Source of the DNA: Pseudomonas grandcourensis
Lineage (GTDB): Bacteria > Pseudomonadota > Gammaproteobacteria > Pseudomonadales > Pseudomonadaceae
Reading direction: 5' to 3'
Length of the DNA: 64,000 nucleotides
NCBI RefSeq assembly: GCF_039909015.1
Contig: NZ_CP150919.1
Span: 2,270,501-2,334,500, forward strand
The position numbers and the translations under genes were made by a program. This document shows positions 1,282 to 49,106 of the stretch, piece after piece (the stretch's first letter is position 1; each line of letters starts with the position of its first letter). The notes under the pieces are model-generated. The model worked only from the letters and a program-made list of their open reading frames with translations. It did no database searches and was not told the origin of the DNA.

Positions 1282-1454
1282 TCGCCCGGCGAGCAATTCA
1301 TATCGCGAATTCCAGGCGCGAATCCCGGGTCCCGGGTAACGCCAACTCTCGCAAAAAAACATAACCAACAAACTGCGCAAGCCAGCACTTGACTTGGCGC
1401 GGGAGGATTTTCTCGTCCCGCGCCTTTACCCAGACATATCGAGGGCAATCCAAA

Positions 1455-7400: not shown

Positions 7401-10400
7401 CACTCCGAGCACAACCGCCTGGTCCAGCAGACCAAGGATACCGTGCTCGATTCGGGTGACGTGGCCTTCCTCAATGAGTGGCTGCTCAATCCGGTGGTTG
7501 CATTGCCAGCCACTCAGGCTGAGTTCGATGCGCTGCAGTGGAATGGCGAGCGCTTGTTCCAGGCTGCCAAGTTCGGCACCGAAATGCAGTATCAGCACCT
7601 GGTGTTCGAGGAGTTTGCACGGACCATCCAGCCTAGAGTCGACCTGTTCTTCGCACCGACCCAGGTCTACGACGTCGACCTCGATGCCTCGATCGTCGCC
7701 GAGTTCGCCCACACCGTATACCGGTTTGGACACTCGATGCTGACCGAGACCGTCGATCGCTTCGACATCGACTTCAACGTGATAGGCGATCCGGCCAGCG
7801 CTAATCCCAATCAGCAAATGGGCTTGATCGCGGCGTTCCTCAACCCGCTGGCGTACGCCGCCAGTGGCGTATCACCTGAGGACGCAACCAGTGCGATCAT
7901 ACGTGGGGTGACTCGGCAAGCCGGTAACGAAATCGACGAGTTCGTCACCGAGGCGCTGCGCAACAACCTGCTCGGCCTGCCGCTCGACCTGCCGGCGCTC
8001 AATATCGCCCGTGGCCGCGACGTGGGGATTCCCTCACTCAATGCGATCCGCCGCGACATCTACAGCCAGACCGGTGATACCCAACTCAAGCCGTACACCA
8101 GCTGGGTCGATCTGGTGCAGTACCTCAAGCATCCGGAGTCGTTGATCAACTTCATCGCGGCCTATGGCACGCATGGCACGATCACGGGGGCGACCACACT
8201 TGATGGCAAGCGCGCTGCAGCTCTGGCGCTGGTCTTGGGTGGTGCGGGTGCACCGGCTGATCGCCTGGACTTCCTCAACAGCACTGGTGCCTATGCCAAC
8301 GTAACGCAGGCCGGCAAGGATGGCGTGCTGGGCACTGCCGACGACCTGAGGAACGTGACGGTCTCGGGCGTCGATGCCATCGATCTCTGGATCGGCGGCC
8401 TGGCCGAAGCGAAAACCCCGTTCGGCGGCATGCTCGGCTCGACCTTCAACTTCGTGTTCGAGAACCAGTTGGAAAAACTGCAGGACGGCGACCGCTTCTA
8501 CTACCTGGAGCGTACCTCTGGCCTGTCGATGAATGCCGAACTTGAAAGCAACTCGTTCGCCAAGCTGATCATGGCCAACACTTCGGCCACGCACTTGCCG
8601 GGCCTGGTGTTCTCGGACATGGGGTTCTATCTGGAAGTGGATCAGGGCAAGCAATTCAACGAAGGTCTGCTCTCCGTCGATCCGCTCGGCCCGAACGGCG
8701 AGCAGGTGGTGTTCCGCGACAACCCGCTGACCGTGGGGGCGGACACCAACTACATCCGGTACGGTGGTGAAGAGCACATCGTGCTGGGCGGCACCGACAA
8801 CGCAGACATCCTCATCTCCAGTGACGGCGATGACACGGTCTGGGGTGATGGCGGCAACGATCGCATCGACGGCGGTAACGGCAACGACCAATTGCGCGGT
8901 GGTGCCGGCGACGACATCATCACCGACACCGGTGGCGACGATAACATCCAGGGTGGCGACGGCAACGACGTGCTGCACGGAGGCAATGGCGTCAACCTGA
9001 TCATTGGCGGGTTCGGCAGCGACTTCATCATTACCGGTGAGGACGCCTCCGAGGCCATTGGTGGCCAGGGTAATGACTTCATCCTGGGCAGCAAAGCCAA
9101 CGAACAGGACATGGGTAACGAAGGCGACGACTGGATCGAGAAGGGCACCTCGGACGGTGCGCCTGGCGACAACTTCGATCCGCTGGGCAACGACCCGGTC
9201 ATTGGCCACGATGTATTCGTCGGTGGCAACGAGAACGATAAGTTCAACGGCGAAGGCGGCGACGACATCATGGTCGGCAGTCTCGGCATGGGTGACCGCT
9301 ATATCGGCGGCTCCGGCTATGACTGGGCGACCTTCAAGGATCTCGCCCAGGGCGTGACCATCGATTACAGCGACCGCTTCTTCGATGTTCCACCTGTACC
9401 GGGTTCGGGCGCCTCGGCGCTGGTGCGCTTCGACATCATGGAAGGTCTGTCGGGTTCGTCCCACGGTGACTTCCTGCGCGGTGACAACGAAGATGCGACA
9501 TCGCTACCCACCGCGGGTGCAACCGGCAGTGTGCTGACCAACATCAGCCTGATCAACGGTCTGGCGGGCCTGCTGCCAGTCGGAGCGACGTTCTTCGACG
9601 GCGGCAACATCATCCTCGGTGGCAGCGGCAGCGACCTCATTGAAGGGCGCGGTGGTGACGACATCATCGACGGTGACAAGTGGCTGAACGTACGCATCAG
9701 CGTACGGGCAAACGCTGATGGCACTGGCGCGGAAATCGCCACGTTCGACAGCATGGCACCGATGGTCCAGGCGATGTTGAACGGTACTTACAACCCGGGC
9801 CAGTTGGTCATCGTGCGGGAGATCCTGACCGGCACTGACAGCTTCGACACGGCGGTGTTCTCCGGTATTGCGTCGGAGTACACAGTTACTGTCGATGGTA
9901 ACGCGGTCATCGTGACCGACCTGGTTGCAGGGCGTGATGGCGTCGATCGCCTGACGGGCATCGAGCGCCTGCAGTTCTCTGACCAGGCCCAGGCCTCCGG
10001 TGTTGGCACCGCCACGAACAGCGCTCCTGTGGGGCGTCTGGCGATCCTCGATGCTACCACCGGTGCGCGTGTCGATGCGCCTGTCGCCGGCCAACTGTTG
10101 CGCGTCAGCAGCCAGTCGATACGCGACGCCAACAACCAGAGTGCGGCCAATGTGACCGGCGCGGTTACAGGCCCCGTGGCTTACTACTGGCAGGTTGAAA
10201 ACGTCCCTGGCTCGGGCGTCTATGAAGACATCACCTTTGTCGCCGCCGGCGAAGTCTCGCGGGCGATCGGCGCCTCCTTCCTGGTGACGGACGATGTCGC
10301 CGGTCTGAACATCCGCGTTCGGGCGGTGTATCAGGATGCCAGTGGTACGCTGGAGATCGTCGACTCGTCGGCGAACAACGCACCGATCGCAGGGCCGGGC

Positions 10401-34662: not shown

Positions 34663-35206
34663 AATCGGGTCCTGAATATGATTTTTATGGTGGCTACTTT
34701 ACACGCAAGAGTGGGGTGAAACCGAGGGGAATTGCGGGGTGCACAGGTGGGGGGGGCGTCCTCCTTGACGCCGCCGCAGCTTAGAGACTGTGCGACTGAT
34801 TCTCAAGTGCTATCTGTCGCCGGTTTGAACCAATGATGCCGTGCAATTACTGGGTAATTGCACGGACTAGCCCCCTATTTGCATTCGACCTGACCAGTCA
34901 TTTGCATCGGATGTGACCCGCACGCTTCGTGGACATGACCGGCAGAGAACGCTCCAAAGTCGACTTCCTCAGAGCACGAAGCGGGCCTGCCCTATGCCTG
35001 CGTCGAGCCGGCCTGGCCGACTGCTCGTCGGCCCATCGAAAACCCACTCAAGATCGCCTCCTTCAAGCCGATGGAGTAGAGGTGCCAACTTGCTTCAAGC
35101 AGTTCATTAACTAGGGGCAAAGTGCTAGCATCGCCGCCGCGCAATGCACCCCGGGCATCAACATAACCGTCGTCTTTCCCAATGCTTTTTTCATCTTTCG
35201 GACTTT
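34663..35206. other. Intergenic region upstream of the second type I secretion operon
   Basis: About 540 bases with no supportable gene. It holds a perfect 12-bp inverted repeat at 34839-34865 and, just after it, two similar 18-base stretches (TTTGCATTCGACCTGACC near 34878 and TTTGCATCGGATGTGACC near 34902). Around 34980-35078 a short frame reads like a decayed protein end (LPYACVEPAWPTARRPIE...), with no start. Possibly a relic of a mobile element. Confidence 0.4.
34839..34865. repeat. Perfect 12-bp inverted repeat
   Basis: CCGTGCAATTAC (34839-34850), loop TGG, GTAATTGCACGG (34854-34865). No T-run follows on either strand, so it is not an obvious terminator; it may be an operator or part of a lost element's end. 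Confidence 0.6.
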
Positions 35207-36928
35207 ATGCGATTTTTCCTAGATCCCCAGCGAGATATCGATGCAGCGTTGCTACGTTATCGCCGGCTGTTTGGCGTGTTGGCACTGTTCAGTGGGGTGA
35301 TCAACCTGCTGATGCTGGTCCCGTCCATCTACATGATGCAGGTTTTCGACCGCGTCCTGACCAGTCGCAATGAAACCACGCTGTTGATGCTGAGCCTGAT
35401 CTTGCTCGGGTTCTTTGCCCTTGGCTGTGTGCTGGAGTGGGTGCGCGGCCAGGTGATGATCAAGATGAGCGCCGGCCTGGACACTCAGTTGGGCGAGCGG
35501 GTATTCGATGCGGCGTTCGAGCGTAGCCTGAAGGAGCACAGCTCCAACCCGGCGCAGGTGCTGAGCGATTTGAACAGCATCCGGCAGTTCGTCACCGGTC
35601 CGGCACTGATTGCCATCTTCGATGCGCCGTGGCTGCCGATCTATGTCATCGCGACGTTCCTGTTCCATCCCTGGCTTGGGAGTTTCACTGTCATCGGTTC
35701 GCTGATCCTTGCCGGGCTGGGAGTCTGGAACGAGCTGACCACCCGCAAAAGCATGAGCGAAGCCAACCGTTTGTCCGTGGCGTCTTCCAGCTACGTGAAC
35801 AGTACCTTGCAGAACGCCGAGGTGATTCAGGCGATGGGCATGCTCGCGCCCTTGCGCCAGCGCTGGTACAACGTGCAGCAGCGGGTCATTACCGAGCAGG
35901 GCGAGGCCAGTGACCGCAGTTCGCGGATCGCTGCGCTGTCACGTTTTGTGCGCATGACCTGGCAATCGCTGGCCCTTGGCCTGGGCGCCATCCTGGTGAT
36001 CGAGAACCAGATTTCCGCCGGGGTGATGATCGCCGTGTCGGTATTGCTGGGACGGGCCATGGCGCCGGCCGAAGCGCTGATCGGTTCGTGGAAGCAGATG
36101 GGTAACGCCAAGAGCAGCTACGAACGCTTGAACCGCCTGCTCGGCGAATTTCCCAAAACCGCGCCAGGCATGCCCCTGCCAGCGCCGACCGGGGCCCTGA
36201 GCATCGACCGCCTGGTGATCATCCCGCCGGGCATGCACAAGCCTGCGGTCAATGGCGTGACCATCAGCCTGGCCAAGGGCGAAGTACTGGCGATCATCGG
36301 TCCGAGCGCGTCGGGCAAGTCTTCCCTGGCGCGCGCCATGGTCGGCATCTGGACCGCCAGGCAGGGCTCGGTACGCCTGGACAGCGCCGAGGTCGGCCAG
36401 TGGTCGCGTGCAGACCTCGGCCCGCACTTGGGGTACCTGCCCCAGGACATCGAGCTGTTCGATGGCAGCATCGCCGAAAACATCGCGCGCTTCGGCGAGG
36501 TGGACGCAGGCAAGGTCATCGCAGCGGCGCAACTGGCTGGTATCAACGAGATGATCCTGCACTTTCCCAAAGGCTATGACACCTTGCTCGGGACTGGCGG
36601 GCTGGGGTTGTCCGGCGGCCAGAAGCAACGTATCGGCCTGGCCCGTGCGTTGTATGGCCAGCCGGCGCTGGTGGTGCTCGACGAGCCCAACTCCAACCTC
36701 GACGATGCCGGTGAAGCGGCGCTGGTACAGGCCGTGCGCAAGCTCAAGGCAGAAGGCTGCACCGTGGTGCTGGTCACCCACAGGCCGAGCATTCTCGGCG
36801 CGGTCGACAAGCTGTTGTTCCTCAAGGACGGCGTACAAACCCTGTTCGGCCCGCGTGACCAGGTGCTCAAGACCCTGGTGCCAGCGACGCCGGCAAAAGC
36901 CGTCGAACTCCGTAATCAAGAAGCCTGA
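35207..36928 (+). CDS. Type I secretion permease/ATPase (PrtD/HasD type)
   Basis: 573-aa inner-membrane ABC exporter, first gene of a complete type I secretion operon. Membrane domain: about residues 15-290, helices at LFGVLALFSGVINLLMLVP and LLMLSLILLGFFALGCVLEW plus the NPAQVLSDLNSIRQFVTGP motif. ATPase domain: about 320-570, with Walker A GPSASGKSS, signature LSGGQKQRIGLARAL, Walker B LVVLDEPNSNLDD and switch His VTHRPS. There is no N-terminal C39 peptidase domain, so the substrate is not cleaved at a double-glycine leader. The start is ATG 35207 (MRFFLDPQRD aligns with family starts); a 21-codon upstream extension looks non-coding. Likely cargo: the octad-repeat protein at 41572, which the operon faces across the glycosyltransferase gene. 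Confidence 0.94.
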   Translation: MRFFLDPQRDIDAALLRYRRLFGVLALFSGVINLLMLVPSIYMMQVFDRVLTSRNETTLLMLSLILLGFFALGCVLEWVRGQVMIKMSAGLDTQLGERVFDAAFERSLKEHSSNPAQVLSDLNSIRQFVTGPALIAIFDAPWLPIYVIATFLFHPWLGSFTVIGSLILAGLGVWNELTTRKSMSEANRLSVASSSYVNSTLQNAEVIQAMGMLAPLRQRWYNVQQRVITEQGEASDRSSRIAALSRFVRMTWQSLALGLGAILVIENQISAGVMIAVSVLLGRAMAPAEALIGSWKQMGNAKSSYERLNRLLGEFPKTAPGMPLPAPTGALSIDRLVIIPPGMHKPAVNGVTISLAKGEVLAIIGPSASGKSSLARAMVGIWTARQGSVRLDSAEVGQWSRADLGPHLGYLPQDIELFDGSIAENIARFGEVDAGKVIAAAQLAGINEMILHFPKGYDTLLGTGGLGLSGGQKQRIGLARALYGQPALVVLDEPNSNLDDAGEAALVQAVRKLKAEGCTVVLVTHRPSILGAVDKLLFLKDGVQTLFGPRDQVLKTLVPATPAKAVELRNQEA

Positions 36929-36935
36929 GGCGTCA

Positions 36936-38270
36936 ATGCAAGCCAGTTCGACCGACATTTCGACCCCCGAGAACAAGCCCGATGCGGATGCCGCGGGCAT
37001 TGCCAGGATCGGTATGTGGTTTTTGCTCCTGGGCCTCGGCGGGTTCCTGCTCTGGGCCTGCCTGGCGCCGCTTGACCGCGGCGTGGTCGGTAGCGGCACA
37101 GTGGTGGTTTCCGGCGAGCGCAAGACCGTGCAGTCGCGCACCGGCGGCACGATCGACAACATCCTGGTACGTGAAGGCGACCGGGTGCAGCAGGGGCAGG
37201 TGGTGATGCAACTCAACACCGTCCAGGCCAAGTCGCAACTTGATGTCGCCCTGGGCCAGTGGCTCGGCGCCCGCGCCGTCGAGGATCGGCTGATGGCCGA
37301 ACGCCTGAACCGCGACACTGTGCAGTGGTCCGCAGCATTGCTGGCCCGCGCCGGCGACCCGCGCGCCGTCGCGGCGATGGAGCTGCAAGGCTATCTGTTC
37401 GCCACCCGCCGTGCCGAACTGGCCAGCCGCATGCAAATCAGCCAGCACGAAATAGCCTCGCTCAAAGAACAGCTCCAGGGCTTCGAAGAGATCAAGCGCA
37501 ACCACGCCGTACAGCTGCAATTCCAGCAGCAGGCGCTCACGGGGCTGCGGGAACTGGCCCGTGAAGGTTATCTGCCACGCAACCGGCTGTTCGAAGCGGA
37601 AAGCAGTGCGGCGCAGTTGGGCGCCCAATTGGCTTCGAGCATTTCCGATATCGGCCGCACGCGCCAGGCGATCAATGAAAGCGAGCTCAAGGCGCTGCAA
37701 CAGGGGCAGGTCTTTCGCAGCGACGCAGAGTCGCAATTGACCCAGGTCGTGGCGCAGACATCGAGCCTGATCGACCAGATCAAGTCATTGGAATTCGAAG
37801 TCAACAGCGCCGCAATCGTCGCGCCCGTCGCCGGCCAGGTGATGGGAATGACGGTGCACACCGTCGGCGGCGTCGCACCAGCGGGCCAGCGCCTGATGGA
37901 CATTGTCCCGCAAGGCTCCAGCTGGGTGGTCAAGGCGCAATTCCCGCCGATGATGGCCGACCGGCTCAAGCCTGAGCTGCCGGTCGATCTGCGTTTCGGT
38001 TCGTTGCAACGGGTCCACACCCCGGTGATCGTCGGCAAGGTGCTCACGGTGTCGGCCGACCAGTTGATCGACGAACACAGCGGTTCGCCCTACTTCTCGG
38101 TGGAGGTCTCGGTCAGCCCCGAGGCGATCATCCATCTGCGCGAGCTGGGCCTGGATGTCAAGCCAGGCATGCAGGCCGAAGTATTGGTCAAGACCGGCGA
38201 ACGCACCCTTGCCAACTACTTGATGCAGCCGGTGACCGAACGTATGGCTGGCGCTTTCAAGGAAGAATGA
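36936..38270 (+). CDS. Type I secretion periplasmic adaptor (HlyD/PrtE family)
   Basis: 444-aa membrane fusion protein linking the ABC exporter to the outer-membrane channel. One N-terminal helix (about 27-46, MWFLLLGLGGFLLWACLAPL), first half of the lipoyl domain (SGERKTVQSRTGGTIDNILV, VREGDRVQQGQVVM), a long coiled-coil hairpin (about 130-290), second lipoyl half (SAAIVAPVAGQVMGMTVHTV), then beta-barrel (LPVDLRFGSL) and the conserved PGMQAEVLVKTGERTLANYL end. The start is ATG 36936, 6 bases after GAGG and 7 bases after the exporter stop; a long in-frame extension into the exporter gene is spurious. Its stop overlaps the TolC gene start. Confidence 0.95.
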   Translation: MQASSTDISTPENKPDADAAGIARIGMWFLLLGLGGFLLWACLAPLDRGVVGSGTVVVSGERKTVQSRTGGTIDNILVREGDRVQQGQVVMQLNTVQAKSQLDVALGQWLGARAVEDRLMAERLNRDTVQWSAALLARAGDPRAVAAMELQGYLFATRRAELASRMQISQHEIASLKEQLQGFEEIKRNHAVQLQFQQQALTGLRELAREGYLPRNRLFEAESSAAQLGAQLASSISDIGRTRQAINESELKALQQGQVFRSDAESQLTQVVAQTSSLIDQIKSLEFEVNSAAIVAPVAGQVMGMTVHTVGGVAPAGQRLMDIVPQGSSWVVKAQFPPMMADRLKPELPVDLRFGSLQRVHTPVIVGKVLTVSADQLIDEHSGSPYFSVEVSVSPEAIIHLRELGLDVKPGMQAEVLVKTGERTLANYLMQPVTERMAGAFKEE

Positions 38271-39595
38271 CCGTGTCCGTACGTATCGCCTTGCTACTCT
38301 CCGTGTTCTGCTCGTGCCGACTGCTGGCGGCTGAAGCGCCGTTGTCACTGGTCGCCCTCTACGACGCCTCGCGACTCAACGATGCGACCTACCAGGTTGC
38401 CAACCATGACTATGAGGCATCGCGCCAGGAAGAGGCTATCGGCCGCAGCGGCTTGCTGCCTCAGGTCGCCATCAACTCACGCTACGGCCATGGCGGCCAG
38501 TTCGAACACCAGTCCTCGGCCAATAGCCAGAGCGATCAGTACGCTTCCGACAGCATAGCCCTGTCGGTTATCCAGCCGCTGTTCGACAAAGGCCGCTGGG
38601 CCTCCTACGAACAGGCCAAGGCGCGTGGGCAGTTGGGCGGAGTCCAGCACGAAGGCGCCGACCAGGAGCTGTTCGATCGCGTGGTTCAGGCCTATTTCGA
38701 TCTCGCCCAGGTGGAAAACGAACTCAAGCTGACGATCCAGCAGAAAGCCTCGGTCGAAGAATTGGCCAAGCAATCCCGACGCCTGTTCGAAGCCGGTGAA
38801 GGCAGCATCACCGACCTTGAAGAGGCGCAAGCCCGGCTCGATTCGATCCGCGCCCTGGAAATTCAGTTGCAGGCCCAGCAGCGAGCGGCCCTGCGCAAGC
38901 TGGCGGGCCGTGCCGGGATTGCCGTCAGCGAGATCCCGCAGATGCAGGAGCAGGCACCGGCCGCCGCCTTGCTTGCCCCCGAGCAGGACCTCGACTACTG
39001 GCTGATCAAGGCCGACCAGACCGCGTCTGCACTGGGCATCAGCCGTGCTTCGATCAAAGTGGCCGAAGCCAACCTCAAGCTGCAGAAGGCCGGGCACTAC
39101 CCGACCGTGGCGCTGAGCGGCCGGCTGGCACGGGTCGACCAGAGCGACCTCAACGAAACGTCCCAGCGCCAGTCGACATACTACTTGGGCGTCGTCATCG
39201 ATATCCCGCTGTACCAGGGCGGAGGGGTCAGCGCTTCTTCCGAAAAGGCCCGGGCTGCCCTGGAGAGCGCCCGGTCCGGCTATGAGGTCCAGCTCCAGCA
39301 AATGAACGAGGACCTCGAGCTCAACTACCTGGGGGTGGTGGCGGGCTTCGAGAAGATCAAGGCCCTGGTGACCGCCGTGCGCTCCAGCCAGACCGCCCTG
39401 AAATCCGCGGAAAAAGGCTATGAGGCCGGCGTGCGCTCGACGGTCGATATCCTCGACGCCCAACAGCGCCTGTTTTCCTCCAAGCGTGACCTGCTCGATA
39501 CCAAGCTGGCGATGCTGCAAAGCTATGTCAACCTGCACACCCACACCGGCCTGATGACCCGCAACGAGCTGGAAAAGGTCCAGGGGTTGTTCTGA
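38267..39595 (+). CDS. Type I secretion outer-membrane channel (TolC/PrtF family)
   Basis: 442-aa TolC-type protein. Signal peptide about 1-21 (VRIALLLSVFCSCRLLAAEA). Two tandem outer-membrane-efflux-protein repeats with long helices; typical blocks are LSVIQPLFDKGRWASYEQAK, VVQAYFDLAQVENEL, GEGSITDLEEAQARL, VAEANLKLQKAGHYPTVALS and GVRSTVDILDAQQRLFSSK. It overlaps the adaptor gene by four bases (ATGA), giving a tight three-gene operon. A 44-base perfect palindrome 5 bases after the stop ends the operon. Confidence 0.95.
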   Translation: MTVSVRIALLLSVFCSCRLLAAEAPLSLVALYDASRLNDATYQVANHDYEASRQEEAIGRSGLLPQVAINSRYGHGGQFEHQSSANSQSDQYASDSIALSVIQPLFDKGRWASYEQAKARGQLGGVQHEGADQELFDRVVQAYFDLAQVENELKLTIQQKASVEELAKQSRRLFEAGEGSITDLEEAQARLDSIRALEIQLQAQQRAALRKLAGRAGIAVSEIPQMQEQAPAAALLAPEQDLDYWLIKADQTASALGISRASIKVAEANLKLQKAGHYPTVALSGRLARVDQSDLNETSQRQSTYYLGVVIDIPLYQGGGVSASSEKARAALESARSGYEVQLQQMNEDLELNYLGVVAGFEKIKALVTAVRSSQTALKSAEKGYEAGVRSTVDILDAQQRLFSSKRDLLDTKLAMLQSYVNLHTHTGLMTRNELEKVQGLF

Positions 39596-39600
39596 CAAGC

Positions 39601-39644
39601 TGTTTCTCTGTAGGCGCGAGCACGCTCGCGCCTACAGAGAAACA
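39601..39644. terminator. Perfect 44-base palindrome between converging genes (REP-type)
   Basis: Two exact 21-base arms (TGTTTCTCTGTAGGCGCGAG, then C) around AC. It lies between the TolC stop (39595) and the glycosyltransferase stop (39654) and can terminate both transcripts. Confidence 0.85.
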
Positions 39645-39653
39645 GCATTACGG

Positions 39654-41489
39654 TTAGACCCGGCCAGGCGCCACACTGCTGATCGCGTCCTCGAAATCCC
39701 TGACGAAGCGTGGCGTGTCGAACAGCGCCGAGTGCTCGCGGCCCTGGTGCAGACGCTCACGCAAGCCGGGCAACAGATCCGCCTGGGTCGCCAGTTCGAC
39801 GGCACGCTCTTCGTACTCGGCCAGCGTGGTGGTGATCAACTCCGGCAGGTCCAGCGCAGTCAGCAGGCTGCCGGCCATGCGCGAGGCAAAAGTGCGTCCC
39901 GAGCGGGTCAGCACCGGCAGGCCCATCCACAGGGCATCGTTGGCCGTGGTCCCGGCGTTGAACGGATACGCGTCGAGGAACAGATCCGCGGCACTGTAGC
40001 GGGCCAGGTATTGCGCCGGTGCGACCCGCGGGGCGAACAGCAGGCGTGCCGGGTTCACGCCATGTGCCTGGGCCCTGGCGCAGAGTTTTTCCTGGGCCCA
40101 GGGGTTGTCGGCCAGCAGCCACAACACACTGTCGGGGGCGCGCTGCAGGATACGCATCCAGCAGTCGAACACTTCCTCGTTGAACTTGTAGTTGTTGTTG
40201 AACGAGCAAAACACGAAACGGTCTTGCGGCAAGCCGCACTCGGCGCGGGTCGGCAACGCGGCAACGGGGCGCTGGCGGTCGCTGCATTGGTAGATCTGCG
40301 CCAGGTACAGCGGTGTTTCGCTGTAGTACGCCTTCTCGCTGTCGGGGATCAGGTAGCGATCGGCGATCACATAATCGATGCCCGGCAGCCCGGTCGACCC
40401 GGGAAAGCCCAGGTAGGTCATCTGCACTGCAGCCGGGCGGTAAGCCGGAATGTCCGGACGGGCTCCGGACGTCAGCCCATGCAGGTCGATGAGGATGTCG
40501 ATCTCATGGTCGCGGATGCATTGCGCGGCAGCGGCATCATCCATGGCGTCGATGCGCACGAAGTGATCCATTGCCTGCCTGACCCGCTCGCGCAGGGGCG
40601 AGCCGTCTTCGCGGCTCCAGCAAAAACCGTACACCTCAAAGCGCTGCCGATCGATCAGTTCGAACAGCTCCACCGTCAGCAACGACACCGCATGCAGGCA
40701 GAAGTCCGAAGACAGGAAGCCGATGCGCAACTTCTGGTGGCCATAGCCCTGGGCCGGAGCCAGGGCGGGGACCCGGACATTGACCCGCTCCTTGACGAAG
40801 TGCACCGCGGCGGCCAGTTGCAGGCCGGGGTCATCGCTGCCGGCGAGCAGTGCCAAGGGTGAGGATGCCTTGAGCAGGTCGCCACGGGTCAAGCCTGCCG
40901 GCGGCTCATAGACCGGCCAGACGCATTGTTTCTGACGCAAGTGCACCCAGTGCTGAATCACCTTGGGTTGATGCGGGTCGGCTTCCAGGCTGGTGCGCAG
41001 GATGGCTTCGGATTTCTGCAACTGCCGGGTTTCCTCGAACAGGCGGCCCAGATTGTTGCAGGTCATCAGGTACAGCTCGCGGCTTTGCGTGGCGTCGACC
41101 AGGCGGTCATCGAGCATCGACTGCCAGATGGCCAGGGCCTCCTGCGGTTTGTGCTGACGTTCCAGCAGCGTCCCCAGATTGAACCACGCCTGGGCGAATT
41201 CCGGGTTCTGGGCAATGGCGGCGCGATAGGCTGCCTCTGCGGCCTCGATCTGCCCCAGTTGCGACAGCGTGGTCCCCAGGTTGAACTGGATAATGTAATT
41301 GACCGACGAATGGCAGTGCTGCAGCCAGCGCTGGTAGAGCGCAGCGACATCGGTGATGCGCTGTGCGCCATTGAGCCGGTCTGCGGTTTCGAGCAACTTC
41401 ATCGGTTCCAGAGCGACGCCCTCGGCCAGCTGCAGGGCTGCGGCCAGCACGATATCGAGGTTCGGGCTCTCAAGATTCTGTCTAGGCAT
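39654..41489 (-). CDS. OGT/SPINDLY-type protein O-glycosyltransferase with TPRs
   Basis: 611-aa cytoplasmic protein. N-terminal TPRs (about 60-200: IQFNLGTTLSQLGQIEAAEA, AWFNLGTLLERQHKPQEALA). The C-terminal half is the glycosyltransferase-41 domain: KLRIGFLSSDFCLHAVSLL (the His matches the catalytic-region His of human OGT), DILIDLHGLTSGARPDI, YLGFPGSTGLPGIDYVIADR, SFNNNYKFNEEVFDCW (Lys that binds the UDP group) and LDAYPFNAGTTANDALWMG. The human HTT motif is GTT here, as in many bacterial members. Such enzymes put GlcNAc or Glc on Ser/Thr or Asn of proteins. It sits just downstream, on the same strand, of a protein with some 470 threonines in octad repeats, the obvious candidate target. The start is ATG 41489; a TTG at 41555 is rejected because the extension runs through the terminator hairpin of the upstream gene. 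Confidence 0.88.
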   Translation of the reverse strand: MPRQNLESPNLDIVLAAALQLAEGVALEPMKLLETADRLNGAQRITDVAALYQRWLQHCHSSVNYIIQFNLGTTLSQLGQIEAAEAAYRAAIAQNPEFAQAWFNLGTLLERQHKPQEALAIWQSMLDDRLVDATQSRELYLMTCNNLGRLFEETRQLQKSEAILRTSLEADPHQPKVIQHWVHLRQKQCVWPVYEPPAGLTRGDLLKASSPLALLAGSDDPGLQLAAAVHFVKERVNVRVPALAPAQGYGHQKLRIGFLSSDFCLHAVSLLTVELFELIDRQRFEVYGFCWSREDGSPLRERVRQAMDHFVRIDAMDDAAAAQCIRDHEIDILIDLHGLTSGARPDIPAYRPAAVQMTYLGFPGSTGLPGIDYVIADRYLIPDSEKAYYSETPLYLAQIYQCSDRQRPVAALPTRAECGLPQDRFVFCSFNNNYKFNEEVFDCWMRILQRAPDSVLWLLADNPWAQEKLCARAQAHGVNPARLLFAPRVAPAQYLARYSAADLFLDAYPFNAGTTANDALWMGLPVLTRSGRTFASRMAGSLLTALDLPELITTTLAEYEERAVELATQADLLPGLRERLHQGREHSALFDTPRFVRDFEDAISSVAPGRV

Positions 41490-41511
41490 TTGCGCGACGA
41501 TCTCTTCCAAT

Positions 41512-41543
41512 AAAAAAATACCGAGCTCTTTCGAGCCCGGTAT
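41512..41543 (-). terminator. Rho-independent terminator after the octad-repeat gene
   Basis: On the minus strand: ATACCGGGCTC, GAAA loop, GAGCTCGGTAT (11 pairs with one G-U), then seven T. It lies 29 bases after the repeat-protein stop and 23 bases before the glycosyltransferase ATG, so read-through would be needed for co-transcription. Confidence 0.88.
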
Positions 41544-41571
41544 CGGATCAGTCAAGGTTTACCACTGAAAC

Positions 41572-44500
41572 TCAGTGAATCCAAGTCTGCACGTCGGTTG
41601 CGACCAACAGCTGGACGTCGCCGTCGTTGAACACGTTGTAGCTGGCGCCATCGACCGTGGTGGTCCCGGCCGCTTGCCACTCGCCACTGTTGCCAGTGAT
41701 GTTGACCGTGTCGTTGTGGTCACCGTCGATGATCATCTGCACCGGTGTCGCGGCACCGCTGGCCACATCCACCTGTCCAGCCTGGCCGAGCTTGGCGACT
41801 GTCTCGGCATCGACGGTCAGTACGCTGGCCTTGCCGCCATCGGTCGACAGATCGATGGCACCCAGGGAGTGGGCATCGAGTGTCGACGAATCCAGCTTGG
41901 TCAGGTCCAGGGACTGATTGCCATTGGCGTCGGTGCGGAACCAGACGTCCGCGATCGTATGGCTCTGGCCATCGCTGGTTTCGTAGCTGCTGTTCAGACC
42001 GATCAGGTTGCCATGGTTGAGCTCGGCGGTCTTGGCCACATCCAGATTGAACTGGGTGATGCCCAGCTCCTTGAGGGTGTGCATCTCGCCCTTTTCACTG
42101 ACGCCATCGTTGTTGGCATCGACCCAGACTTGCAGCGCCGCGAACAGCTGGTCCGCCGAGTTGAGTGCGCCGTCATGGTTGCTGTCCAGGCTGACGAGTG
42201 CCTCGAAGCCGTCCTTGGCCAACGAACCGTCCGGCAGACGGAACGAGGAACCGAACAGCTCGGAGCCATCGTTGACCTGGCCATCGCCGTTGAGGTCGAG
42301 CGCCAGCAGGCCGTCACCGCCAGCGGTCCAGCCAGTGGCTTCCTTGTGGCCGTCGGCATTGAGGTCGAACTTGACGCCGTTGCTCAGGTGGGTGGTCTGC
42401 ACGCCATCGCCGTTGAGGTCCAGGACCAGCGGTGTGGACAGGGCCAGCGCGTCGATCTGGGTGGCGGTCATCGCCTGCAGTTGCGCAGTGGTGAACGAAT
42501 CAACCTGGGTCATCGACAGGTGCGACAGTTGCGCCGTGGTCAGCACTGCGGCTTGCGCCGTGGTGAGGGCCGCGACTTGTGCCGTGGTCAATGCCGCCAT
42601 GTCGGTGGTTTCGATCGCCACGATCTGCGCGGTGGTCAGGGCCGCTACATCGGCGGTTTCCAGGGCGCTGATCTGGGTCGGCTTGAAGGCCGCGATCTGC
42701 GCCGTGGTCAGGGCCGCCACCTGGGCAGTGGTCAACGCTACCAGTTGGGCAGAAGTCAGCGCGCCGATATCGGCGGTTTCCATGGCCGCCACTTGCGTGG
42801 TGGTCAGGGCTGCGATCTGGGTCACCTTCAGCGCCGCCACTTGGGCGGTGGTCAGGGCAACTACCTGGGCGGTGGTCAGGGCAGCAGTCTGCGCAGTGGT
42901 CAGGCTTGCAGTGTCGGTCACTGTCAGCGCGGCGATGTCTGCCGTTTCAAAGGCCGCCACTTGCGTGGTGGTCAATGCCGCCGTTTGGGCGGTGGTCAAG
43001 GCCGCCACCTGAGCGGTGGTCAGGGCCACGACCTGGGCGGTGGTCAGCGCCGCGACATCGGCGGTTTCCATGGCGCTGATCTGGGTCGGTTTCAGTGCAG
43101 CCACTTGTGCCGTGGTCAGTGCCGCGACCTGGGCGGTGGTCAAGGCTACCAGTTGAGTGGCAGTCAGGACGCCGACATCGGCAGTTTCCATGGCCGCCAC
43201 TTGCGTGGTGGTCAGGGCGGCCACCTGGGCGGCGGTCAGTGCCGTCACTTGGGCGGTGCTCAGCGCCACGACCTGGGCGGTGGTCAGGGCGGCCACATCG
43301 GCGGTTTCCATGGCACTGATCTGGGTCGGCTTCAGGGCCGCCACCTGGGCGGTGGTCAACGCTGCCACTTGGGCGGTGGTCAGGGCCACGACGCCGGCGG
43401 TTGTCAGCGCGGCAACATCGGCAGTTTCCATGGCCGCCACTTGCGTGGTGGTCAGTGCAGCCACTTGGGCCGGTTTCAGCGCGGCCACCTGGGCAGTGGT
43501 CAATGCCACCACCTGGGCGGTGGTCAGTGCAGCGGTCTGCGCGGTGGTCAGGGCCGCAACGCTGGTCGCTGGCAAGGCGGCGATGTCAGCGGTTTCGATG
43601 GCCGCCACTTGCGTGGTGGTCAAGGCAGCCACTTGCGCGGTGGTCAGTGCAGCCACCTGGGCGGTGGTCAGGGCCACCACCTGAGCCGTGGTCAAGGCGG
43701 CCACGTCGGCGGTTTCCAGGGCGCTGATCTGGGTCGCTTTCAGTGCCACCACTTGTGCCGTGGTCAGTGCCGCGACCTGGGCAGTGGTCAACGCTACCAG
43801 TTGGGCAGAAGTCAGCGCGCCGACATCGGCAGTTTCCATGGCCGCCACTTGCGTGGTGGTCAGGGCAGCCACCTGGGCCGGTTTCAGCGCGGCCACCTGG
43901 GCAGTGGTCAATGCCACGACCTGGGCGGTGGTGAGGGCAGCGGTCTGCGCGGTGGTCAGGGCCGCAACGCTGGCCGCAGGCAAGGCGGCGATGTCAGCGG
44001 TTTCCATGGCCGCCACTTGGGTGGTGGTCAAAGCAGCCACTTGCGCGGTAGTCAAAGCAGCCACCTGGGCGGTGGTCAGGGCCACGACCTGGGCGGTGGT
44101 CATCGCCGCAACATCGACAGTCTGCAGGGCGCTGATCTGGGTCGGTTTCAGCGCAGCCACCTGGGCGGTGGTCAGTGCCGCGACCTGGGCAGTGGTCAAG
44201 GCGACCACACCAGCGGTGGTCAACGCACCGATATCAGCGGTTTCGATGGCCGCCACTTGCGTAGTGGTCAAAGCAGCCACTTGCGCGGTGGTCAGGGCTG
44301 CCACCTGAGCGGTGGTCAACGCCACCACCTGAGCGGTAGTCAATGCCGCCACGTCAGCGGTTTCCATAGCCGCGATCTGAACCGGGGTCAGCGCCGCGAC
44401 CTGGGCGGTGGTCAGCGCCGCCACCTGGGCGGTGGTCAAGGCCACGACGCTGGCGGTGGTCAGCGCGGCGACATCGGCGGCCTGCATGGCAGCCACTTGC

Positions 44501-47500
44501 GTGGTGGTCAGTGCAGCCACTTGGGCCGGTTTCAGCGCGGCCACCTGGGCAGTGGTCAATGCCACGACCTGGGCGGTGGTCAGGGCAGCGGCCTGCGCGG
44601 TGGTCAGGGCGGCGACGCTGGTCACTGGCAAGGCAGCGATGTCAGCAGTTTCGATGGCCGCCACTTGGGTGGTGGTCAAAGCAGCCACTTGCACGGTGGT
44701 CAGTGCAGCCACCTGGGCGGTGGTCAGGGCCACTACCTGAGCGGTGGTCAAGGCAGCCACGTCGGCGGTTTCCAGGGCGCTGATCTGGGTCGGCTTCAGT
44801 GCCGCCACTTGTGCCGTGGTCAGTGCTGCGACCTGGGCAGTAGTCAACGCTACCAGTTGGGCAGAAGTCAGCGCGCCGACATCGGCAGTTTCCATGGCCG
44901 CCACTTGCGTGGTGGTCAGGGCTGCGATCTGGGTCACCTTCAGCGCCGCCACCTGGGCAGTGGTCAATGCCACCACTTGGGCGGTGGTCAGTGCAGCGGT
45001 CTGCGCGGTGGTCAGGGCCGCAACGCTGGTCGCTGGCAAGGCGGCGATGTCAGCGGTTTCGATGGCCGCCACTTGCGTGGTGGTCAAAGCAGCCACTTGT
45101 ACGGTGGTCAGTGCAGCCACTTGGGCGGTGGTCAGGGCCACCACTTGAGCGGTGGTCAAGGCAGCCACGTCAGCGGTTTCCAGGGCGCTGATCTGGGTCG
45201 GCTTCAGTGCCGCCACTTGTGCCGTGGTCAGTGCTGCGACCTGGGCAGTGGTCAACGCTACCAGTTGGGCAGAAGTCAGCGCGCCGACATCGGCAGTTTC
45301 CATGGCAGCCACTTGCGTGGTGGTCAGTGCAGCCACCTGGGCCGGTTTCAGCGCGGCCACTTGGGCAGTGGTCAATGCCACCACCTGGGCGGTGGTCAGT
45401 GCAGCGGTCTGCGCGGTGGTCAGCGCGGCGACGCTGGTCGCTGGCAAGGCGGCGATGTCAGCGGTTTCGATGGCCGCCACTTGCGTGGTGGTCAAAGCAG
45501 CCACTTGCGCGGTGGTCAGAGCCGCCACCTGGGCGGTGGTGAGGGCCACGACCTGGGCGGTGGTCAACGCAGCGACATCGACAGTCTGCAGGGCGCTGAT
45601 CTGGGTCGGTTTCAGCGCCGCCACCTGGGCGGTGGTCAGAGCCGCGACCTGGGCAGTGGTCAGGGCCACGACACCTGCGGTGGTCAACGCACCGATATCG
45701 GCAGTTTCGATGGCCGCCACTTGCGTGGTGGTCAGGGCGGCCACCTGCGCGGTGGTCAGTGCAGCCACCTGAGCGGTGGTCAACGCCACCACCTGAGCGG
45801 TAGTCAATGCCGCCACGTCAGCGGTTTCCATCGCAGCGATCTGAGCCGGGGTCAGCGCTGCGACCTGGGCGGTGGTCAGAGCCGCGACCTGAGCGGTGGT
45901 CAGGGCCACGACGCTGGCGGTGGTCAGCGCGGCGACATCGGCGACCTGCATGGCCGCCACTTGCGTGGTGGTCAGTGCAGCCACTTGGGCCGGTTTCAAC
46001 GCAGCCACCTGGGCGGTGGTGAGGGCCACGACCTGGGCGGTGGTCAGGGCAGCGGCCTGCGCGGTGGTCAGGGCGGCGACGCTGGTCACTGGCAAGGCCG
46101 CGATGTCAGCGGTTTCGATGGCCGCCACTTGCGTGGTGGTCAAGGCAGCCACTTGCGCGGTGGTCAGTGCCGCGACTTGAGCGGTGGTCAGGGCCACCAC
46201 CTGGCCGGTGGTCAAGGCGGCCACGTCGGCGGTTTCCAGGGCGCTGATCTGGGTCGGTTTCAGTGCCGCCACTTGTGCCGTGGTCAGTGCCGCGACCTGG
46301 GCGGTGGTCAAGGCTACCAGTTGAGCGGCAGTCAGGGCGCCGACATCGGCAGTTTCCATGGCCGCCACTTGGGTGGTGGTCAAAGCAGCCACTTGCGCGG
46401 TGGTCAGTGCCACCACCTGGGCGGTGGTCAAGGCCACGACCTGGGCGGTGGTCAGCGCCGCGACATCGACAGTCTGCATGGCGCTGATCTGGGTCGGTTT
46501 CAGAGCCGCCACCTGGGCGGTGGTCAGAGCCGCGACCTGGGCAGTGGTCAAGGCGACGACACCAGCGGTGGTCAATGCACCGATATCGGCCGTTTCGATG
46601 GCCGCCACTTGCGTGGTGGTCATGGCCGCCACTTGCGCGGTGGTCAGTGCAGCCACCTGGGCGGTGGTCAACGCCACCACCTGAGCGGTAGTCAATGCCG
46701 CCACGTCAGCGGTTTCCATAGCAGCGATCTGAATCGGGGTCAGCGCTGCGACCTGGGCGGTGGTCAGTGCCGCGACCTGAGCGGTGGTCAGGGCCACGAT
46801 GCTGGCGGTGGTCAGTGCGGCGACATCGACGGCCTGCATGGCCGCCACTTGCGTGGTGGTCAGTGCAGCCACTTGGGCCGGTTTCAGCGCGGCCACCTGG
46901 GCGGTGGTCAGGGCCACCACCTGGGCGGTGGTCAGGGCAGCGGCCTGGGCGGTGGTCAGGGCGGCAACGCTGGCCACCGGCAAGGCGGCGATGTCAGCGG
47001 TTTCGATGGCCGCCACTTGCGTGGTGGTCATAGCAGCCACTTGCGCGGTGGTCAGTGCAGCCACTTGGGCGGTGGTCAGGGCCACCACCTGAGCCGTGGT
47101 CAAGGCGGCCACGTCGGCGGTTTCCAGGGCACTGATCTGGGTCGGTTTCAGTGCCGCGATCTGCGCGGTGGTCAATGCCGCGACCTGGGCGGTGGTCAGG
47201 GCGACGACGTCAGCGGTGGTCAGTGCGGCGACATCGGCGGCCTCCATGGCCGCCACTTGCGTGGTGGTCAGTGCAGCCACCTGGGCCGGTTTCAGCGCGG
47301 CCACCTGGGCGGTGGTGAGGGCCACGACCTGGGCGGTGGTCAGGGCAGCGGTCTGCGCGGTGGTCAGTGCGGCGATGCTGGCCACTGGCAAGGCGGCGAT
47401 GTCAGCGGTTTCGATGGCCGCCACCTGGGTGGTGGTCAAGGCAGCGATCTGTGTGGTTTTCAGCGCGGCGACCTGGGCGGTGGTCAGGGCCACTACTTGA

Positions 47501-48105
47501 GCCGTGGTCAAGGCGGCCACGTCGGCGGTTTCCAGAGCACCGACCTGGGTCGGGGTCAGCGCCGCGACCTGGGCAGTGGTCAGTGCCGCCACCTGAGCGG
47601 TGGTCAGGGCCACGACGCTGGCGGTGGTCAGCGCGGCGACATCGACGGTCTGCAGGGCCGCCACTTGCGTGGTGGTCAGTGCTGCGACTTGCGTGGTTTT
47701 CAGCGCCGCAACTTGGGCAGTGGTCAGGGCAACAACCTGTGCGGTGGTCAGTGCGGCAGTCTGGGCCGTGGTCAGGCTGGCGAGCGAGGCAACGGGCAGC
47801 GCAGCGATATCCGTCGTTTCGAAGGCAGCGACTTGCGTAGTCGTCAGCGCAGCGATCTGCGTGGTTTTCAGTGCGGTGACCTGAGCGGTGGTCAGGGCAA
47901 CAACCTGTGCGGTGGTCAGTGCCGGTACCTGCACGGTCGAAAACACGGCAATGTTCGGCGTGGTGATGACCGCGATCTGCGCAGTGGTCATCACGGCGAT
48001 CTGAGCGGTGCTCAAGGCGGCAATATCCTGGGTCGCAAGCCCAGCAATGGTGGTTGTACTCAGGGCAGCGACTTGCGCTGGGGTCAACGAAGAAATAAAG
48101 CTCAT
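41572..48105 (-). CDS. Giant secreted Thr-rich octapeptide-repeat protein with C-terminal calcium-binding domain
   Basis: 2177-aa protein. After MSFISSL it consists of about 235 octapeptides of consensus ALTTAQVA (variants ALKPTQIS, AMETADVA, ALPVASVA) up to about residue 1888. The C-terminal 290 residues hold six DxNxDG-type calcium loops (LDLNGDGVQT, DLNADGHKEATGW, LDLNGDGQVNDGSELFG, LDSNHDGALNS, VDANNDGVSEKGE, DANGNQSLD), a domain common at the end of type I secreted RTX-like proteins. No Sec signal, no double-glycine leader, and no LapA-style N-terminal retention module, so it is probably released or held by its repeats. The start is ATG 48105, 7 bases after AGGA; the upstream in-frame ATG at 48129 has no ribosome site. 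Neighbours: an OGT-type glycosyltransferase downstream, a type I secretion operon beyond it, a methyltransferase divergent. Function inferred as adhesin or surface/matrix protein. Confidence 0.88.
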   Translation of the reverse strand: MSFISSLTPAQVAALSTTTIAGLATQDIAALSTAQIAVMTTAQIAVITTPNIAVFSTVQVPALTTAQVVALTTAQVTALKTTQIAALTTTQVAAFETTDIAALPVASLASLTTAQTAALTTAQVVALTTAQVAALKTTQVAALTTTQVAALQTVDVAALTTASVVALTTAQVAALTTAQVAALTPTQVGALETADVAALTTAQVVALTTAQVAALKTTQIAALTTTQVAAIETADIAALPVASIAALTTAQTAALTTAQVVALTTAQVAALKPAQVAALTTTQVAAMEAADVAALTTADVVALTTAQVAALTTAQIAALKPTQISALETADVAALTTAQVVALTTAQVAALTTAQVAAMTTTQVAAIETADIAALPVASVAALTTAQAAALTTAQVVALTTAQVAALKPAQVAALTTTQVAAMQAVDVAALTTASIVALTTAQVAALTTAQVAALTPIQIAAMETADVAALTTAQVVALTTAQVAALTTAQVAAMTTTQVAAIETADIGALTTAGVVALTTAQVAALTTAQVAALKPTQISAMQTVDVAALTTAQVVALTTAQVVALTTAQVAALTTTQVAAMETADVGALTAAQLVALTTAQVAALTTAQVAALKPTQISALETADVAALTTGQVVALTTAQVAALTTAQVAALTTTQVAAIETADIAALPVTSVAALTTAQAAALTTAQVVALTTAQVAALKPAQVAALTTTQVAAMQVADVAALTTASVVALTTAQVAALTTAQVAALTPAQIAAMETADVAALTTAQVVALTTAQVAALTTAQVAALTTTQVAAIETADIGALTTAGVVALTTAQVAALTTAQVAALKPTQISALQTVDVAALTTAQVVALTTAQVAALTTAQVAALTTTQVAAIETADIAALPATSVAALTTAQTAALTTAQVVALTTAQVAALKPAQVAALTTTQVAAMETADVGALTSAQLVALTTAQVAALTTAQVAALKPTQISALETADVAALTTAQVVALTTAQVAALTTVQVAALTTTQVAAIETADIAALPATSVAALTTAQTAALTTAQVVALTTAQVAALKVTQIAALTTTQVAAMETADVGALTSAQLVALTTAQVAALTTAQVAALKPTQISALETADVAALTTAQVVALTTAQVAALTTVQVAALTTTQVAAIETADIAALPVTSVAALTTAQAAALTTAQVVALTTAQVAALKPAQVAALTTTQVAAMQAADVAALTTASVVALTTAQVAALTTAQVAALTPVQIAAMETADVAALTTAQVVALTTAQVAALTTAQVAALTTTQVAAIETADIGALTTAGVVALTTAQVAALTTAQVAALKPTQISALQTVDVAAMTTAQVVALTTAQVAALTTAQVAALTTTQVAAMETADIAALPAASVAALTTAQTAALTTAQVVALTTAQVAALKPAQVAALTTTQVAAMETADVGALTSAQLVALTTAQVAALTTAQVVALKATQISALETADVAALTTAQVVALTTAQVAALTTAQVAALTTTQVAAIETADIAALPATSVAALTTAQTAALTTAQVVALTTAQVAALKPAQVAALTTTQVAAMETADVAALTTAGVVALTTAQVAALTTAQVAALKPTQISAMETADVAALTTAQVVALSTAQVTALTAAQVAALTTTQVAAMETADVGVLTATQLVALTTAQVAALTTAQVAALKPTQISAMETADVAALTTAQVVALTTAQVAALTTAQTAALTTTQVAAFETADIAALTVTDTASLTTAQTAALTTAQVVALTTAQVAALKVTQIAALTTTQVAAMETADIGALTSAQLVALTTAQVAALTTAQIAAFKPTQISALETADVAALTTAQIVAIETTDMAALTTAQVAALTTAQAAVLTTAQLSHLSMTQVDSFTTAQLQAMTATQIDALALSTPLVLDLNGDGVQTTHLSNGVKFDLNADGHKEATGWTAGGDGLLALDLNGDGQVNDGSELFGSSFRLPDGSLAKDGFEALVSLDSNHDGALNSADQLFAALQVWVDANNDGVSEKGEMHTLKELGITQFNLDVAKTAELNHGNLIGLNSSYETSDGQSHTIADVWFRTDANGNQSLDLTKLDSSTLDAHSLGAIDLSTDGGKASVLTVDAETVAKLGQAGQVDVASGAATPVQMIIDGDHNDTVNITGNSGEWQAAGTTTVDGASYNVFNDGDVQLLVATDVQTWIH
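42450..48090 (-). repeat. 24-bp coding repeats with a 408-bp higher-order unit
   Basis: About 235 copies of a 24-base unit coding ALTTAQVA-type octapeptides. Marker octads (xxETADxA) recur at 5- and 7-octad steps, making blocks of 17 octads (136 aa, 408 bases); for example, near-identical sequence begins at 44744 and 45152, exactly 408 bases apart. Strong base-level identity between blocks suggests recent amplification or gene conversion, and the array is probably variable in length between strains. Confidence 0.92.
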
Positions 48106-48503
48106 GGACGCATCCTGTATAGGGGTCATTTACGGCGCTGCCAGCGTTGTCGCCGTAGCCTTGGGCGGAAATCTGGTAGCCCTCGTGTCATTAGCGACAC
48201 ATGCGGTAAAAACATTAAGAATCTTTTTGATGGCTTTTTGCCTTTTTTAAACTTTTAGTTATAAAAAGTCTTTGTTTTATAGGCTCGGATAGTAATGAGT
48301 GGGTGTCATATGGCCACTATCGTAGGTTTCCGCCATTCTTTGCGAGCTGACCCAACGGCACGCCGCTGTGCTGCCATGAACTTGACCCTTGCCCAGCACT
48401 TCCCCTAGTGTGCGCGGGCGTCCGTTGGCAGGCATTGGCCAGCGGAACATGCCCCCATTTCCCCTTTTGCCATCCGGCAAGGGCCTTGATCGAGTAACTG
48501 ATT
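48106..48503. other. Divergent intergenic region of repeat protein and methyltransferase
   Basis: About 400 bases without a supportable gene. 48200-48300 is A/T-rich (TTTTTTAAACTTTTAGTTAT, ATAAAAAGTC) in contrast to the GC-rich genes and probably carries the promoters. A short GTGTC...GACAC inverted repeat is at 48185-48200. Confidence 0.5.
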
Positions 48504-49106
48504 GTGAAAACCTTCCTCCATGTAGGATGCGGTCCAAAGAGCAAGAACAGCACGACCAAGGGCTTCGCCTCGGAGCAGTGGCAGGAACTGCGCTTCGATA
48601 TCGATGAGAGTGTCAACCCGGACATCGTCGGCACCATGACCGACATGTCCCAGGTCAAGGACGCTTCGGTGGATGCGCTGTTCTCCAGCCACAACATCGA
48701 GCATCTCTATCCCCATGAGGTGCCGGTCGCCCTGGCGGAGTTCAAGCGCGTCCTCAAGCCTGGCGGCTTCGTGATCATCACTTGCCCGGACCTGCAATCG
48801 GTGTGCGCCCTGGTGGCAGAAGACAAGCTGACCGACGAGGCCTACCTTTCACCGGCCGGCCCGATCGCGCCCATCGACATCCTCTACGGTCATCGCCCGG
48901 CCATGGCCAACGGCAACGTGTTCATGGCGCACCGTTGCGGTTTCACCAAGAAGGTCCTGACCGGCTCCCTGCAAGCGGCCGGCTTCGACATGGTGCTGCC
49001 GATCCAGCGTGCCCATCCGGCCTATGACCTGTGGGCGGTGGCGGCACTTGCGCCGATCTCCGAGCAGGAAGTGGTGGCGATCGCCAACCAGCATTTCCCT
49101 GCCTGA
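48504..49106 (+). CDS. Class I SAM-dependent methyltransferase
   Basis: 200-aa cytoplasmic protein. SAM-binding motif I is at the very start (FLHVGCGPKSK), the acidic motif II in LRFDIDESVNPDIVG, then SSHNIEHLYPHEV and the motif LKPGGFVIITCPDLQ. The C-terminal part (GHRPAMANGNVFMAHRCGFT) resembles methyltransferases found in glycan and surface-polysaccharide loci. The start is GTG 48504 with a weak ribosome site. It is divergent from the repeat-protein gene; with the glycosyltransferase on the other side it could modify the same glycan, but the substrate is unknown. Confidence 0.85.
   Translation: MKTFLHVGCGPKSKNSTTKGFASEQWQELRFDIDESVNPDIVGTMTDMSQVKDASVDALFSSHNIEHLYPHEVPVALAEFKRVLKPGGFVIITCPDLQSVCALVAEDKLTDEAYLSPAGPIAPIDILYGHRPAMANGNVFMAHRCGFTKKVLTGSLQAAGFDMVLPIQRAHPAYDLWAVAALAPISEQEVVAIANQHFPA

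Follow-up and report, generated by a model that had tools for sequence, protein, structure and literature searches.

A gene cluster of Pseudomonas grandcourensis that joins an octad-repeat protein, an OGT-type glycosyltransferase and a type I exporter: a candidate route to secreted, sugar-coated rods

Introduction

Serine-rich repeat adhesins, which use the accessory Sec system, and HMW1, the substrate of HMW1C, are repeat or large adhesins that receive their sugar in the cytoplasm from an enzyme encoded alongside them and then leave the cell by a dedicated export route. A cytoplasmic step before export is also described for FlmG of Caulobacter: in the part of the report used here, its TPR part binds flagellin, its glycosyltransferase part modifies this acceptor while it is still in the cytoplasm, and the sugar is pseudaminic acid (PMC7591256). 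For the cyanobacterial proteins oscillin and SwmA, which are calcium-binding secreted RTX proteins, glycosylation is reported, and in FrpC calcium binding to the self-processing module leads to cleavage at Asp414–Pro415, both as given in the portion of the source drawn on here (PMC3034196).

Here, we describe a gene cluster whose parts are of known kinds and whose repeat, PF20080, is already in Pfam. The combination of octad protein, GT41 enzyme, and type I exporter was not found in the literature searched (titles and the starts of abstracts, with few subscription papers covered). An earlier note on this DNA had proposed that the Thr-rich octads are O-glycosylated in the cytoplasm, perhaps methylated, and then exported. 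We consider the core of this proposal rather probable, that is, a candidate pathway in which GT41 O-glycosylates octad Thr in the cytoplasm, after which the type I system exports the rod.

Results

Layout of the gene cluster

The window is the whole stretch of DNA analyzed here, 64,000 nucleotides long, and it belongs to a genome that was searched in full (6.76 Mb, one contig). The features of the cluster are collected in Table 1. The earlier note had described an exporter/adaptor/TolC operon converging on an OGT-type GT41 gene, a 2177-residue octad protein encoded directly upstream of that gene on the same strand, and a divergent SAM methyltransferase. This observation is confirmed with small corrections only. 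The ABC protein, adaptor, and TolC protein all score above their model cut-offs, and 58 bp separate the end of the GT41 gene (39654) from the convergent TolC gene. The distance from the end of the octad gene to the likely GT41 start is 82 bp, and the methyltransferase, which carries LHVGCG near its N terminus, starts 398 bp from the octad gene start. A recount of the octads, given earlier as about 235, yielded about 235–240, and five DxNxDG-type motifs were counted. The earlier figure of about 470 Thr in the octad protein was too high; we counted 434 in the 2185-residue open reading frame.

Three gene starts were reassigned. The open frame of the HlyD gene begins too early (36576), and an in-frame ATG at 36936 lies directly after the ABC stop. 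The GT41 frame opens with TTG at 41555, and the in-frame ATG at 41489 is the likelier start because most close homologs have 611 to 613 residues. The start of the octad protein that is common to relatives, MSFISS, is residue 9 of the 2185-residue frame, which gives 2177 residues. PF20080 and PF13844 have no further matches elsewhere in the genome. With the GT41 of Pseudomonas sp. GM74, the window enzyme shares 98% identity.

Table 1. Features of the cluster, in window coordinates
Feature	Position	Strand	Basis
ABC exporter, PrtD type	35144..36928	+	TIGR01842 733 bits, cut-off 510
HlyD-type adaptor	36936..38270	+	TIGR01843 327 bits, cut-off 209
TolC-type outer membrane channel	38267..39595	+	TIGR01844 257 bits, cut-off 225
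GT41 glycosyltransferase with TPRs, OGT type	39654..41489	-	PF13844 253 bits; XcOGT E 4e-90
Octad protein, 2177 aa	41572..48105	-	PF20080 1736 bits, 63 stretches; start common to relatives
Octad array, limits approximate	42445..48087	-	Octad pattern counts; modeled at array end: one 5–6-residue helix per octad
Calcium-type domain, homologous to FrpC self-processing module	41929..42432	-	6sjw E 6e-38; Foldseek E 3e-17
Class I SAM methyltransferase, divergent, accessory	48504..49106	+	PF08241 42 bits; lineage-restricted

The octad protein and its C-terminal domain

The octads correspond to the Pfam ALTTAQ repeat (PF20080; curated cut-off, 26.4 bits), and the strength and extent of the match (1736 bits over 63 stretches) rule out a chance repeat. 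An octad pattern found 243 matches, three of them false and situated in the C-terminal part; ALTTAQ occurs 98 times in the protein and the exact unit ALTTAQVA 59 times. Within the 1892 residues of the array there are 410 Thr, 41 Ser, and no Arg. Octads lacking both Ser and Thr number 14 of the 243 (column-shuffle mean, 10.8). An excess of octads with at least one hydroxyl was thus ruled out, a result that counts against the main reading. Counted from MSFISS, four related octad proteins have 2449 (L019), 2473 (L020), 1609 (L021), and 2529 (L041) residues, and all differ in length from the window protein by multiples of 8.

We modeled the last 486 residues (window 41575–43032) with AlphaFold2, using 26 sequences. 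The model has a mean pLDDT of 85.9; taken in blocks of ten residues, 15 of the first 20 blocks reach at least 92. Helices recur every 8 residues (6–10, 14–18, 22–26, and on), each opening with octad position 3 and directly preceded by position 2, so that the protein, as modeled, is a solenoid with one short helix per octad. HeliScrew4 (Protein Data Bank 9zem), a solved chain with units such as LTPEQIAA, matches the octads. A Foldseek search with the model returned the FrpC module and then weak matches only, the best being that of the solenoid to mesothelin (E 0.01, low TM-scores). By eye, no signal peptide was seen at the N terminus (MSFISSLTPAQ), and the protein has no match to the RTX nonapeptide family PF00353. 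The C-terminal piece gave one match to a PHROGs family named protease (phrog_3677).

The C-terminal domain is homologous to the self-processing module of FrpC (44% identity in the Foldseek match; 6sjx is a further solved structure besides 6sjw). At the junction, STPLVLDLNGDG, the window protein has Thr before Pro (STP) where FrpC has Asp. Among 61 open reading frames from octad loci, the residue before this Pro is Thr in 42 and Ser in 14, and five are unreadable. FrpC-like clip-and-link chemistry was ruled out by the absence of Asp-Pro, and because the scissile Asp is missing, the domain is probably a calcium-dependent fold that does without FrpC-type cleavage. Domains of this kind are widespread in giant secreted proteins; among 118 junctions examined there, 77 have Thr or Ser before the Pro and 16 have Asp. 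Since Thr/Ser is common there, it is no special mark of the octad proteins. The domain of the octad protein is also found in RTX proteins.

The GT41 enzyme and its linkage to octads

The GT41 protein combines TPR matches with a match to PF13844 (cut-off, 25 bits), and its closest solved relatives are XcOGT and animal OGT. The active-site residues His288 and Lys457 align with His218 and Lys388 of XcOGT (counted on the alignment) and are invariant in 17 homologs. Against the HMW1C/NGT N-glycosyltransferase model NF049992, the protein reaches 26 bits at a cut-off of 1000.

Across 149 genomes of the genus, GT41 (called at E ≤ 1e-50) occurs in seven and octads in eight; both occur in seven, octads alone in one, and GT41 alone in none (Fisher p 2.9e-11, kinship ignored). 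The eighth octad genome, G123, is a fragmented assembly; its octads lie where a contig ends, and its GT41 match is weaker. In G128, a 43%-identical GT41 adjoins another octad protein. Among the best 79 of 248 GT41 relatives from GTDB, the octad gene immediately precedes the GT41 gene, on the same strand, in 55 loci, which span Pseudomonadota and Thermodesulfobacteriota; within these 79, it does so in 24 of 25 loci at 61% identity or more. The remaining 24 loci of the 79 have octads elsewhere (5), the C-terminal domain only (3), no octads (13), or no octads with less than 2.5 kb of upstream sequence (3). On a tree of 86 GT rows, in which long branches were flagged, the octad label needs 10 changes versus a shuffle mean of 21.

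Of 398 genomes from the phylum, 133 have GT41 and 28 have PF20080, and 19 of the 28 have GT41, namely our own genome and 18 of the 27 others. Where at least 18 PF20080 matches were listed, GT41 is present in 17 of 18 genomes, 14 of the 18 belonging to one family (f47). The exception, G536, encodes a 1435-residue octad protein and has no GT41; the other eight GT41-free genomes have one to five PF20080 matches each. Octads were also found in 16 of 399 Burkholderiales genomes, and 14 of these were taken further (G769, with no place listed, and G376, with weak matches, were left out). Four loci cut at a contig edge (G623, G689, G715, G763) were excluded, and of the 10 with downstream sequence, eight have GT41 in the stretch, that of G822 being partial. 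G709 and G794 have none in the stretch around the octad gene, which alone was searched. In G702, about 12 kb separate GT41 from the PF20080 match, and the octad pattern did not find the octads again in two stretches.

The link between octad protein and GT41 is thus strongly supported by joint presence and kept neighborhood, and, as judged from these genome comparisons, the pair is a conserved unit. Octads without GT41, which the earlier note would have taken as counter-evidence, occur rarely, with G536 as the clear case.

Two side observations belong here. A 9542-residue open frame with PF20080 matches lies in G702 (C16, near 304720), with GT41, ABC, and HlyD matches some 12 to 20 kb off, and the Caulobacter vibrioides control genome matches both PF20080 and GT41.

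Alternatively, GT41 could act on flagellin, like FlmG of Caulobacter, or on some other protein, and merely adjoin an octad gene whose product is exported bare. Related GT41 loci do adjoin flagellin or FliD genes (L083, L056, L075, L060, and L087, of which L056 and L087 also have octads), which fits FlmG as a TPR-type flagellin enzyme in the account used here; GT41 is also far commoner than octads in the phylum (133 versus 28 of 398), and the octads of G536 do without it. These last two points, and the 13 octad-free loci among the best 79, count against the main reading as well. However, the kept upstream position in 55 of the best 79 of 248 loci, the octads in all seven GT41 genomes of the genus, the site pattern described below, and the lack of a flagellar gene among the window genes scanned (part of the window open reading frames) make this alternative quite improbable.

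Ser/Thr pattern of the octads

Ser/Thr positions were compared between 73 GT41-associated octad proteins and four from GT41-free genomes. The 73 rows comprise the 55 GTDB loci, seven further loci (L102–L107 and L111), and 11 alpha-proteobacterial stretches (L117–L127) from genomes with GT41, five of the 11 stretches showing a GT41 match themselves, one of them weak (67 bits). For the GT41-free set, seven stretches were tried, three of which (L114, L115, L116) were dropped with fewer than 12 octads, and G278 and G402 were left out; the four proteins measured come from G536 and from G339, G342, and G418, which are of one genus, and so represent about two lineages.

In the GT41-free proteins, the Ser/Thr fraction is 0.78 to 0.86 at position 2 and at most 0.05 to 0.25 at position 3 or 4. 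In the GT41-associated proteins, the larger of the values at positions 3 and 4 is 0.48 to 1.00 (median, 0.80), with 0.37 to 0.76 at position 2. The hydroxyl at position 2 looks like a helix cap, and that at position 3 or 4 looks like an extra. Because PF20080 is itself TT-rich, TT-type octads are what a search of GT41-free genomes should most readily turn up; all four proteins measured there are of another type. The claim that the repeats are O-glycosylated gains indirect support from position 3/4 Thr/Ser tracking GT41 and from sister GT41 genes, some of which adjoin flagellin or FliD.

The same pattern could arise if GT41 acted outside the octads, or if the third-position Thr were kept for folding or charge only, the repeats then being no acceptor. 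The position 3/4 hydroxyls could be passed on by descent together with the octad type, and the GT41-free set contains few independent lineages. Against this, some octads carry Pro-Glu or Ala-Ala at positions 3–4, and because one such chain, HeliScrew4, has been solved, Thr at these positions is not needed for the fold. We give this explanation little credence.

Three octad proteins of family f47 have 2.6 to 3.2 Ser/Thr per octad. In this alpha-proteobacterial family, single proteins of up to 3781 residues hold several GT41 matches. G252, G212, G264, and G276 encode giant proteins of about 2500 to 3800 residues with several matches each (e.g., L104, 3–9596), and octad proteins of the same genomes are Ser/Thr-rich.

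The exporter

The trio lies beside GT41 in 18 of the 55 octad loci (among the best 79 of 248), all from Pseudomonas; a more distant ABC gene was found in three, and no related exporter in the examined stretch of 34. The co-occurrence that the earlier note had proposed to look for in other genomes was found for octads and GT41, and no related exporter was seen in many of these stretches. Other exporters adjoin octads in 11 loci (L054, L092, L103, L106, L119, L120, L122, L123, L142, L143, and L146), with the gene orders octad-ABC-HlyD-TolC in L146 and octad-ABC-HlyD-GT in L054. That several kinds of exporter adjoin octad genes speaks for the type I link, against which stand the 34 stretches without a related exporter.

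Relatives of the exporter also occur away from octads. G093, which has no octads, encodes a 79%-identical relative in an intact 579-residue frame convergent with an RTX protein, and 15 further octad-free genomes of the genus have relatives at 64 to 67%. The exporter was therefore dropped as a specific marker of the octad system, and its lack of exclusivity counts against the main reading. One explanation is that the octad protein is glycosylated and leaves by another exporter, the neighboring trio serving an RTX protein. The related trios convergent with RTX proteins in G093 and G135 (66% identical in the latter) are in line with this, as are the 85 to 86% identical exporters of G003 and G144, located elsewhere in the genome and away from the octad gene, and a second PrtD-type gene, 53% identical, at the left edge of the window. 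On the other hand, the trio converges on the GT41 gene in 18 Pseudomonas loci, different exporters directly adjoin octads elsewhere (L146 and L054, for example), and the window has no RTX gene between trio and octad gene. Export by another system thus seems unlikely to us; in this cluster, we infer, an exporter of the RTX type has the octad protein as its substrate.

The second PrtD-type ABC gene (window 1–756, minus strand; G000:C1:2269601-2271256) overlaps the left window edge. Close to it, at 1389–12095 on the plus strand, a 3568-residue protein has animal heme peroxidase (PF03098) and RTX (PF00353) matches and a 246-bp tandem repeat, and the two look like a separate type I cassette.

The methyltransferase

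The methyltransferase flanks the octad gene in all eight window-clade Pseudomonas loci with the whole gene (L019, L020, L021, L024, L026, L027, L028, and L041), and in G118 and G516 no relative was found at this place. It was downgraded from a core part on this ground and is accessory. In L074, L076, L089, and L091, a relative is situated shortly downstream of the GT41 gene, and in a Duganella octad locus (L046, 9854–13156) GT41 is fused to a Methyltransf_23 domain. Methylation, suggested earlier, thus has weak backing, from one Pseudomonas clade, with G118 and G516 against it.

Discussion

In the pathway that we favor, the octad protein would fold into a solenoid of short helices, as modeled, and would be held in the cytoplasm by the TPR part of GT41. 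The enzyme would use a nucleotide sugar as donor and attach the monosaccharide to Thr or Ser where the helices start, at octad position 3 and, in some lineages, 4. PrtD/HlyD/TolC, to go by its family and neighbors, would recognize the C-terminal region and export the rod in one step. Outside the cell, the FrpC-like domain would fold on calcium and cap or anchor the rod, and its missing Asp suggests that it would do so without Asp-Pro cleavage. More speculatively, some lineages may use the methyltransferase to modify the sugar.

The recurrence of octads, GT41, and a pump in distant bacteria suggests that secreted rods with a sugar coat form a family not yet described. A broader version, which we hold to be evenly balanced between right and wrong, is a widespread class of secretion-coupled glycosylation, in which GT41 enzymes decorate a helical octad solenoid on at least one hydroxyl in every eight residues, amounting to hundreds in each molecule, and so make it a stiff, mucin-like rod for type I export; the number of hydroxyls per octad would have changed in evolution together with that of GT41 modules, and close relatives would differ in rod length by whole octads. 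If true, the pathway would assign a role to PF20080, a repeat family already catalogued, and substrates to many bacterial OGT homologs, and it would offer a regular acceptor, its site pattern repeated from helix to helix, on which to study OGT-type site choice. As the third-position Thr tracks GT41, the idea is directly testable by mass spectrometry.

Compared with known systems, PF20080 and HeliScrew4 have the same kind of octad as the window protein, but their entries, as seen here, include no enzyme or exporter, whereas the window cluster has both. The FrpC module is a homolog of the C-terminal domain with a different residue before Pro. XcOGT and human OGT share the TPR and GT41 fold and the aligned His and Lys and, unlike the window enzyme, come without a secretion cassette. 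In the portion of the source used here, oscillin and SwmA have RTX nonapeptides and no octads, unlike the window protein. FlmG, as far as the account used here goes, is like the proposed enzyme in binding its acceptor through the TPR part and in acting in the cytoplasm before export, and differs in its acceptor (flagellin), its flagellar export route, and its sugar. Serine-rich repeat adhesins and HMW1C/HMW1 have export routes and acceptors other than those of the window cluster; if the pathway holds, type I secretion would join the routes by which proteins glycosylated on repeats in the cytoplasm are exported.
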